In this document: one piece after another, positions 9,114 through 12,787 of the stretch
Layout: each line of letters begins with the position of its first letter
Position numbering within the stretch: the stretch's first letter is position 1
DNA from: Bacteroidota bacterium
GTDB taxonomy: Bacteria; Bacteroidota; JABWAT01
Reading direction: 5' to 3'
Length of the DNA: 44,382 nucleotides
NCBI GenBank assembly: GCA_017303995.1
Contig: JAFLBE010000035.1
Location: 1 to 44,382, forward strand
Position numbers and translations under genes: made by a program
Notes under the pieces: model-generated
What the model was told of the DNA's origin: nothing
Seen by the model: only the letters and a program-made list of their open reading frames with translations
Databases searched by the model: none

Positions 9114-10934
9114 TTACCGGTCCCTCACTAACCGAACTGAAAGCAGACTTGTTTTTTTATTACTATTGCGTTTGATACTTTGGTCAGTTTCAGAGACGTC
9201 CCTGCTCCAGGCACCGGTATCGTTACTTGTTGAAGTCCACCAAAATCCACGAAAACCAAGGTAACCAAAGGTTCCAATCGTGCCAAAACATCCGCCACCT
9301 GGAAGTAAATTCAATCCGAAATGATCTGAACCATTTCCGTTTTCCTGCCAACCTGATTTCGATTTCAACTTTGAGTCTGCATCAGATTGACCGCCAATAA
9401 AATCAGTCAGTTTAGCCCAGTCTTCATCGGTTGGGACACGCCAGCCACTTTTACCTGATACAATTTTTCCATCAGCAACCGCAAACCAGTTATACAGATA
9501 ACCATAAGTCTGCCCAATTTTTGAATTGTTTTCATAATGGGTAAGAACACCATTGGTAATGTTATCCAAACCTGTGGTTTCATTTACTTTTTCTATTGAA
9601 GTTCCATCAGAATACCGGGTAACCCGAAGGTTTTCTGCAAGCCACTCCTGATTTCCAATAAGTATGGTTTTGTACACATTTCCGTCAATATCAAAATATA
9701 AACCCGTTTTGGCCGGATTTAACAAATCAATAACTTGAATGAAATTACCATTTTCAGTAAGGTCCGCCTGAAACTGATAACTTTTAAATCCTTCCTTTTT
9801 CAACATGATTTCTGTTTGACCCACAGGTAACTGATCTTCAAACGGAGTAAAACCAAGTACCTTTTCTTCGCCATCCTGAAGCACAGTAACTGATGCACCT
9901 TCGGGAATTGTGGAGAGACTAAATTGAACCAGTACAGGTTCAAAAACTGGTTCCCAGTTGATAACATCACCCTTTTTAACAGAAAATGAAAAGGTCTCAG
10001 ATTTGAAACCTGTTCTTTTCACCCTTGCAGTAAAACTTCCTTCGAAAAATTCAAACGTCTGAGGACCCTTTTTCTTGTTCCAGATACTGCCATTGATATC
10101 AACTTCGAATGCATCCGGGTGATTAATCCGTAAGAATCCACTTCGTTTTTTCAAAGGTAATTCTACGACTTTGTTGTCACCTGATCCAAGTCTGATGGTT
10201 TCACTGAAGGGTTCAAACCTTGAATCGTTCACTGCGAGTGTGTAATTGCCTTCGGGGAGTTTTTGGCTGACAAATTCAGATCCTGTTTCAACCGGAAGGT
10301 CATTGATCAACACCAACACAGTTAGTGGTGCTTTAATTAAAAGTGTCCCAAACATGGAGCGTAACCGGAATAATCCGCTTTGTTTCATTCCTGGCCGGAT
10401 TTCAAGTAACGTATCCAACGGATGATAATCGGGTTTGGTGAGATTAATTTGGTATTTTCCGGCTTTAAAGTCCTTCAATTCAAACGGAGTAACTTCACGA
10501 AAGGAAGGAATACCATCAATTTTAAGCATCACACCATCAGGTACTGTATTGACCTTAAAACTTCCTTTTTCAGAACTATATTTTTCCTCTTTCGGGTTTA
10601 ATCTATAAAATTTCGCCTGTTTTGCGGAAAGATTTTCCATTGCCAGTTTTTTCTCGATGAATCCTGGCGCTTTTAAAGTCAGAATCTGGCGTTCGGGTTT
10701 GAGAAATATGGTTGACTTGGTGGCTTCATTTTGAATTTTAGAAATTCCACCGGTGTTGGACTCAATCGTAAAGCCGGTGATTGCGGTATAAATAACCAGT
10801 GCTGCTTCATTTGGGTGGTCAACAAAAACCGGAATCTGCTGTTCAGCCATCTCCTGAAGATCGAATTCCCGGAGGGATTGGGAAAAGAGCAGATCAGGGA
10901 GAAAAAGGGTAAAGAGTAGGAGTAGACTTTTCAT
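9114..10934 (-). CDS. PEGA-repeat and FISUMP-domain exported protein (second paralogue)
   Basis: A 606-residue exported protein. Residues 1-18 are a signal peptide (MKSLLLLFTLFLPDLLFS), followed by the SLREFDLQEM segment it shares with its neighbour. The middle (about 100-400) contains several PEGA-like beta repeats, and about residues 425-605 form a Fibrobacter succinogenes major paralogous (FISUMP) domain: IGNQEWLAENL, GYLYNWFAV, GWRVPTDEDW, GFWWTSTS, SVRLVRD. Function is unknown; FISUMP domains are presumed surface binding modules with a C-type-lectin-like fold. An upstream start at 10967 is possible, but the ATG at 10934 has the signal peptide directly after it and overlaps the stop of the preceding gene (ATGA). 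Codon use in the C-terminal 60 codons is ordinary (14 of 62 end in C), unlike its neighbour. Confidence 0.88.
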   Translation of the reverse strand: MKSLLLLFTLFLPDLLFSQSLREFDLQEMAEQQIPVFVDHPNEAALVIYTAITGFTIESNTGGISKIQNEATKSTIFLKPERQILTLKAPGFIEKKLAMENLSAKQAKFYRLNPKEEKYSSEKGSFKVNTVPDGVMLKIDGIPSFREVTPFELKDFKAGKYQINLTKPDYHPLDTLLEIRPGMKQSGLFRLRSMFGTLLIKAPLTVLVLINDLPVETGSEFVSQKLPEGNYTLAVNDSRFEPFSETIRLGSGDNKVVELPLKKRSGFLRINHPDAFEVDINGSIWNKKKGPQTFEFFEGSFTARVKRTGFKSETFSFSVKKGDVINWEPVFEPVLVQFSLSTIPEGASVTVLQDGEEKVLGFTPFEDQLPVGQTEIMLKKEGFKSYQFQADLTENGNFIQVIDLLNPAKTGLYFDIDGNVYKTILIGNQEWLAENLRVTRYSDGTSIEKVNETTGLDNITNGVLTHYENNSKIGQTYGYLYNWFAVADGKIVSGKSGWRVPTDEDWAKLTDFIGGQSDADSKLKSKSGWQENGNGSDHFGLNLLPGGGCFGTIGTFGYLGFRGFWWTSTSNDTGAWSRDVSETDQSIKRNSNKKTSLLSVRLVRDR

Positions 10935-12787
10935 TGTTGGACATCCCTGACCAGGCGGACGGACCACCCGTAACTCTTACTGCCGTTGCCTCTGGCCAAA
11001 AGGGCGTTATTGTACCCCATGCTGCGGACCCAAGCGTTATTCGTATCGATAGGAGTTGAACTCCACCAGTAGCCGTAGTAGCCAACGTCGTCGCCTAAGA
11101 CTCCATAGTAGTAACGGACACCACCCGGAAGGGCGCTGAAGCCGTAGTCATCACTTCCATTTCCATTACTATTCCAGCCTGTTTTGGCTTTCAATTTTCC
11201 CCCGGCATTTCCTTCACCCCCAACATAATCAGTTAGTTTCGTCCAGTCTGCATCCGTTGGTACCCGCCAGCCTCCGGTTTTGGGTGCCAGTTTTCCTGTG
11301 TTCACTGCATACCAATTGTACAGATATCCGTAAGTGGTTACATTCTTTTCTGTGTTATCATTAGCACAATAGGCACCAGTTGTCGTATTGCTCCATGCTG
11401 ACCCATCGGTGATTTTGGTAATTGCAGTCCCGTCATTGTATCTGGTAGTGTTTAAATTTTCAACCGTCCATTCCTGAGTGCCAATTACGACAGTTTTGTA
11501 GGTAAAGCCGTTGTATTCCAATTGTCCATATTTTATTACCTTAACCACCTTATATTCATTGGCTAATGGATTGGCAAGATTGATGTTTTTCTTGAATGGC
11601 TTCTCTGCTTCCAGCTTTGCCTTCAAAGTGAAATCATTAAACCCTTCCCTTTTGATCAAAAACTCCACATCGCCAACTGCAACCTGCTCTTCAACGGGAC
11701 TAAAGCCAAGTAATTCAGTAGAAGTACCCCGAATCAATTGAATGGTAGCTCCCGCCGGTGCAGTCTGAATGCTAACTTTTACTGTTACCGGCGTGAACAC
11801 GGGTTCCCAGTTAATAACATCGCCTTTTTTAACCAGAAATGAATAGGTTACCGGTTGAAACCCAGGACGTTTCACTTCTACCCGGTAACTGCCATGGAAT
11901 AATTCCATCATATCGGGTCCCGGTTTTTTTACCCTTGTTTCCCCATTAATGGTTAATTCAAAGCCATCCGGGTGAAGGATCTGCAGATATCCCGCCTTTT
12001 TAATCAGGGGTAAATCCACAATTTTAACGCCACCGGATGGAACGGTTACTGTTTCCCTGTAATATTCAAATCGAGGATCATCTACATTTAGGGTGTAAAC
12101 CCCCTCAGTTAACCTGAGGCTTTTAAGTTCCGGTCCAATCTCTTGCGTTATTGAATTCACCTTGACTTTTACAGGTAATGGGGCTTTTAGTGACAGTGTT
12201 CCATACATGGATCTAAGTTGAAAAAGTCCGCTTTGCTTAATTCCCTGACGGATTTCAATGAGGGTGTCCAGCGGATAATAGTCTGGTTTGGTAATGGCAA
12301 TCCGATATTTTTTAGCCTCAAAATCTTTGAGTTCGAAGGGTGTCAGTTGTTTGAATGTCGGGAATCCATCAATCCTTAGCATGGCTCCTTCCAGTTGGGT
12401 ATTAACCAGGAAAGTTCCCTTTTCAGCCGTGTAGGTCTCTGTCAGGGTATTCAACCTGTAAAACTTTGCTTGTTTAGCAGAGAGGTTATCTATTGATAGT
12501 TTTTTCTCAATAAAGCCCGGTGCTTTTAACTTCAGGATCTGCCGTTCCGGTTTTAAAAAAACTGTGAATTTAGAACCATCACTTTGAGTGCTAACGACTC
12601 CGCCAGTGCTTGACTCAAGAGTCAACCCGTTAATTGCAGTGTAAAAGATTAAAGCAGCATCGTTGGGATGGTCTATAAAAACCGGAATTTGTTGCTCACT
12701 CATTTCCTGAAGGTCAAATTCCCGAAGGCTTTGGGAGAAAAGCAGGGCTGGGAGGAAAAAGAGTGACAGGAAGAGTAGGGTTTTCAT
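10931..12787 (-). CDS. PEGA-repeat and FISUMP-domain exported protein (first paralogue)
   Basis: A 618-residue exported protein, parallel in design to its downstream neighbour: signal peptide at 1-19, conserved N-terminal SLREFDLQEM domain, about four PEGA-like repeats between residues 115 and 405, and a FISUMP domain at about 425-615 (VIGTQEWTVENLN, GYLYNWYAV, GWRVPTDADW, GYWWSST, GWSVRLVRD). PEGA repeats act as surface spacers in other proteins. The last 72 codons are strikingly rich in codons ending in C (36 by my count), with runs of TAC, GAC, GGC and GTC, and end in a GC-rich stretch, unlike the rest of the gene. A short VQQ tail follows RLVRD. The stop overlaps the next ATG (ATGA). Specific ligand unknown. 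Confidence 0.9.
   Translation of the reverse strand: MKTLLFLSLFFLPALLFSQSLREFDLQEMSEQQIPVFIDHPNDAALIFYTAINGLTLESSTGGVVSTQSDGSKFTVFLKPERQILKLKAPGFIEKKLSIDNLSAKQAKFYRLNTLTETYTAEKGTFLVNTQLEGAMLRIDGFPTFKQLTPFELKDFEAKKYRIAITKPDYYPLDTLIEIRQGIKQSGLFQLRSMYGTLSLKAPLPVKVKVNSITQEIGPELKSLRLTEGVYTLNVDDPRFEYYRETVTVPSGGVKIVDLPLIKKAGYLQILHPDGFELTINGETRVKKPGPDMMELFHGSYRVEVKRPGFQPVTYSFLVKKGDVINWEPVFTPVTVKVSIQTAPAGATIQLIRGTSTELLGFSPVEEQVAVGDVEFLIKREGFNDFTLKAKLEAEKPFKKNINLANPLANEYKVVKVIKYGQLEYNGFTYKTVVIGTQEWTVENLNTTRYNDGTAITKITDGSAWSNTTTGAYCANDNTEKNVTTYGYLYNWYAVNTGKLAPKTGGWRVPTDADWTKLTDYVGGEGNAGGKLKAKTGWNSNGNGSDDYGFSALPGGVRYYYGVLGDDVGYYGYWWSSTPIDTNNAWVRSMGYNNALLARGNGSKSYGWSVRLVRDVQQ

Follow-up and report, generated by a model that had tools for sequence, protein, structure and literature searches.

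The window, a 44,382-nucleotide stretch of DNA from a Bacteroidota bacterium, carries two PEGA-FISUMP genes in tandem, designated g1 and g2. The features discussed below are as follows.

9114 to 10934, (-) strand: g2, tandem PEGA-FISUMP paralogue of g1, 606 aa (Pfam)
10931 to 12787, (-) strand: g1, open reading frame for an exported PEGA-FISUMP protein of 618 aa, carrying the variable region
N-terminus of g1, (-) strand: signal-peptide-like stretch MKTLLFLSLFFLPALLFSQS, judged by eye
11573 to 11782, (-) strand: PEGA domain, g1 residues 336-405 (Pfam PF08308, E 2e-17)
10946 to 11491, (-) strand: FISUMP (Fib_succ_major) domain, g1 residues 433-614 (Pfam PF09603, E 3e-37)
10943 to 11140, (-) strand: orphan DGR-type variable region, probably a fossil (NNC codons at template-AAC columns; TR/VR boundaries)
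10943 to 10963, (-) strand: GC-rich 3' end of that region, SVRLVRD codons (alignment to seven TR/VR pairs at their 3' ends)
10931 to 10934, (-) strand: ATGA overlap of the g1 stop and the g2 start (sequence)

The Pfam scan placed both PEGA and Fib_succ_major in g1 above the cut-off, the latter with 129 bits against a PF09603 cut-off of 33.9. The variable region stops four codons short of the stop codon, at the 3' end of the gene, and the ATGA overlap comes directly after it. A lectin-like fold is predicted for the FISUMP domain. The best PDB fold match is the C-terminal domain of Legionella Lcl, and the match is weak (E 0.017). The AlphaFold model reached a pTM of 0.81, was good in one of five models only, and had low confidence within part of the variable region, and a PDB sequence search yielded no credible relative. 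The predicted lectin-like fold is therefore weakly supported, and we infer that g1 would serve as an exported lectin-like recognition domain.

Diversity-generating retroelements (DGRs) are bacterial systems that randomly rewrite a single site within a gene. An earlier note on this DNA had suggested that the tail of g1 is the variable region of such a system, on the ground that 36 of its last 72 codons end in C. The count is exact, as compared with 111 of 546 in the rest of the gene (Fisher p=2.3e-7). In 10,000 codon shuffles of g1, 36 C-ending codons were never reached in any 72-codon window, and synonymous shuffles with the protein fixed gave 20.5 +/- 3.3 in the tail, with 0 of 5,000 reaching 36. 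The tail of g2, which lacks the signature, served as the internal control; its matching part has 14 C-ending codons of 62, as had been counted. When the g1 tail was compared with the upstream part of the domain for NNC versus NNT codons, the difference was not significant (p=0.14). Composition alone is thus thin evidence, and it is the position of the C-ending codons that decides.

Subsequently, sibling copies were compared. Twelve FISUMP domains occur in the genome containing the window, a 98% complete assembly of 4.31 Mb in 127 contigs. In the congener G002 (a draft of 40 contigs, 94% complete), a single contig carries more than 20 FISUMP tails, many of them in PEGA genes resembling g1. The signature is common to about a dozen FISUMP copies from the genome of g1 and one congener; other copies look eroded, and most copies in these genomes are without it. 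The codon alignment contains columns in which the third base is frozen, mostly as C and in a few columns as T, and the first two bases differ among the copies. Ordinary protein evolution produces the opposite pattern. When the 12 signature copies were pooled, departures at codon positions 1, 2, and 3 were 62, 45, and 23%, versus 67, 54, and 66% in the other copies, and AAT columns tended to keep T. The 12 copies had been chosen by the rank of their C signature, so that these pooled figures are partly circular; the contrast between AAC and AAT columns and the external definition of the columns are safer evidence than the pooled shares. On the congener contig (C31, 0.3-101 kb; L068-L071), PEGA-FISUMP and other FISUMP genes form a large expansion, with its more than 20 tails against the two PEGA-FISUMP genes of the window.

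As the reference, genuine FISUMP DGRs were collected. A template was written from the frozen columns of the genus copies, with AAC or AAT at the variable positions, and a scan of the genome collection for an AAC-bearing template gave 12 loci, ten of which were taken as template references. DGR-type reverse transcriptases (RTs) with GRYVDD and GLPIGN motifs were found in six pieces (L109, L110, L111, L112, L114, and L116), and a FISUMP target paired with its own template in seven (L107, L110, L111, L112, L115, L116, and L117); RT, template, and target occur together in four (L110, L111, L112, and L116). In the seven pairs, template and target agree at 98-100% of the non-adenine positions and differ at 38-65% of the template adenines, and every AAC codon retains its C. 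The genus-derived template matches the real template of L110 at 85% over 190 bp and is closer to it than to any genus copy (80% at best). In L109 (4753-6231) and L114 (1388-3004), the template repeat lies in frame inside the RT open frame. DGRs that target Fib_succ_major have been published (PMC4159848; PMC8143477), and the earlier note had named FISUMP among the DGR target families.

With the AAC columns defined solely by these external FISUMP-DGR templates, g1 keeps C at 15 of 17 columns, as compared with 14 of 42 codons elsewhere in the tail (p=1.3e-4). This value is the joint highest among the 35 tails scored, and one further copy, C31_31511, likewise keeps C at 15 of these 17 columns; g2 has C at 4 of the same 17. 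At 13 of the 17 columns, the residue in g1 is not Asn. The first and second bases at template AAC codons are thus substituted in g1 while the third base is kept, as expected of a variable region.

The boundaries point in the same direction. In known FISUMP DGRs, the homology between template and variable region opens in a TTYACAGCCCTTCCGGGTGGC-like sequence and closes at about AGGGAT, and both edges coincide with the edges of the C-rich tract of g1, at 11140 and 10943. The region runs from TTC-AGC-GCC-CTT-CCG-GGT-GGT (11140) to GTC-AGG-GAT (10943). The template-like tract thus begins slightly later than described previously, at TTC-AGC-GCC, and the GC-rich end is the SVRLVRD codons TCC-GTC-CGC-CTG-GTC-AGG-GAT (10943), where FISUMP TR/VR homology ends. 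This tract shares its position and a similar sequence with real TR/VR 3' ends, but its codons are also conserved in FISUMP domains. It occupies the position that the initiation site has in FISUMP DGRs, and a role in initiation is putative.

We then looked for the machinery. An RVT_1 search of the genome of g1 returned a single protein, which Pfam identified as an RT-Cas1 fusion (789 aa, RVT_1 and Cas_Cas1; L011 11321-13690, that is, C74:27321-29690). Its gene lies downstream of RAMP-like ORFs, and L011 is probably a type III CRISPR locus. A profile of seven DGR-RT sequences recovered this protein (E 3e-24) as its sole hit in the genome, had no match in G001 or G002, and hit one 793-aa frame in G003, probably another RT-Cas1. 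The RT-Cas1 was rejected as the mutator because it is fused to Cas1 and no template was found in the genome.

The template repeat was absent from the assembly of g1 and from three relatives, which together are the only four genomes of the order; the best match was 80%, in FISUMP genes. No template was found in phage and plasmid collections and no template pattern in viral contigs, and none of 80 viral DGR loci matched the tail or the template. In a phylum sample of 394 genomes, only the genome of g1 and G002 matched at E<=1e-15, a strict threshold that distant real templates could slip past. Neither a DGR-type RT nor a matching template repeat was found in the drafts. The earlier note was right that RT and template are missing from the window, and the same holds for the assembly as a whole, a 98% complete draft. 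The genome search that the earlier note had recommended, for a near-identical template and a DGR-type RT, turned up neither (best match 80%; only the RT-Cas1). Since both were sought and not found, the locus is filed as an orphan DGR-type variable region and not as a DGR.

Next, departures outside the template adenines were examined. The g1 tail departs from the genus consensus at 11 of 98 non-adenine template positions, of which 4-5 sit at an extra g1 codon, in a stretch of uncertain alignment. The consensus merely stands in for the true template, and this and the other departure figures are therefore upper estimates of decay. Among the remaining departures are F to W and V to L, which mutagenesis at adenines would not produce. 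In intact pairs the non-adenine departure is 0-2%, and it is 4-6% in the C74 copy and the best copies of the congener. Departure is as low as 4-5% in some tails of the congener, so the activity may have been recent.

Taken together, these findings suggest that the g1 tail most likely remains from hypermutation in the past, and we consider it probable that it is a DGR variable region now orphaned, written by an RT in the past and left behind when RT and template were lost. The variable region would be the last ~66 template-matching codons of the FISUMP domain. A past DGR RT would have copied a template repeat with AAC or AAT codons at the variable positions, misincorporating bases opposite the template adenines, and the cDNA would have replaced the 3' end of g1 (mutagenic retrohoming). 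The outcome would be NNC codons, coding for Y, S, D, G, N, and other residues, interspersed with framework codons left unchanged, for example TGG-TGG-AGT. One template family may have written FISUMP tails, about a dozen in all, both here and in the congener; after the loss of RT and template, the tails would drift as parts of ordinary genes for exported lectin-like domains. The DGR origin is indicated by the scrambled first two bases and frozen third base at AAC columns, the shared boundaries, and the many siblings. The DGR reading proposed before thus stands as to origin and not as to a working DGR at this site, where RT and template are missing and non-adenine drift is seen; its fallback, a DGR lost or acting from a distance, was the right reading, with loss the likelier.

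Loss is favored since the machinery is missing in two species; its chief competitor is a mobile element that escaped assembly. According to this explanation, which we regard as unlikely, a DGR RT and template located on a plasmid, a prophage, or an unassembled contig continue to rewrite the variable region in trans. Trans diversification has been published (PMC10907252), C retention at AAC columns is high in g1 and C31_31511, and both signature-bearing assemblies are drafts (98% and 94% complete; 127 and 40 contigs) from which a mobile RT or template could be missing. Against this, RT and template are absent from both species and two further relatives, the phage, plasmid, and viral DGR sets contain no match, and g1 has drifted at non-adenine sites, F to W and V to L among them.

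A further explanation, which appears very improbable, is that recombination between FISUMP paralogues has since exchanged an old tail of DGR origin, giving diversity without reverse transcriptase. The large tandem array of the congener does hold many different tails, and silent identity among signature copies is slightly higher in the tails than upstream (0.57 vs 0.49); however, this excess is marginal, its 95% interval includes 0, no long identical tail segments were seen between copies, and within its own genome the g1 tail is matched at 79% at best. A combined scheme also seems improbable, though slightly less so: one off-stage or recently lost DGR might have served at least a dozen unlinked FISUMP surface proteins, including part of the congener array, whose diversity would now be kept by recombining stored tails without RT. 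Finally, codon bias or convergent NNC use in a naturally variable domain, with no DGR at all, is hardly credible, for although most FISUMP copies lack the signature and the NNC/NNT comparison was not significant, this reading is largely refuted by the confinement of C to certain columns and T to others in agreement with independent templates, by the shuffles and pooled codon positions, and by the patternless tandem paralogue.

The g1 tail shares with the Fib_succ_major/DUF1566-target DGRs (PMC4159848, PMC8143477; L107-L118) the target domain, the variable columns, the start and end, and the adenine-linked NNC codons, whereas in those systems an RT and/or a template lies close by, the template agreeing with the target at 98-100% of the non-adenine positions, and their targets end in SVRC(L/V)RD instead of SVRLVRD. 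Relict variable regions have already been published, and the g1 tail adds another instance. Treponema denticola isolates carry leftover target genes without the core DGR (PMC4891356), with several adenine-linked variable regions in genomes lacking RT and template, as here; there, however, a sister isolate retains the core DGR and the template is known, whereas no such relative was found in the present case. RT-less DGR fragments in Nanoarchaeota, read as fossil or remotely diversified (PMC4372165), likewise show the signature without RT, but those genomes hold other complete DGRs and the targets are orphan genes, not FISUMP. A DGR remnant in a cyanobacterium (PMC7517822) and trans action in Thiohalocapsa (PMC10907252) similarly involve targets distant from, or without, a complete cassette, but in most of those genomes RT and template lie elsewhere, and here none was found. 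A DGR target can thus be recognised by its codon pattern against the templates of other organisms when RT and template are absent, and standard RT-first searches miss such orphan target genes. Across the two congeners the tails grade from near-template to fully eroded, which makes them suited to asking how hypervariable surface proteins fare once the mutator is gone.

Elsewhere in the genome of g1 (C74; L010 2308-9336), a 2342-aa protein with a type IX-like sorting tail at its end contains two tandem internal FISUMP domains, and both show the DGR-type codon signature at positions that are not gene-terminal.
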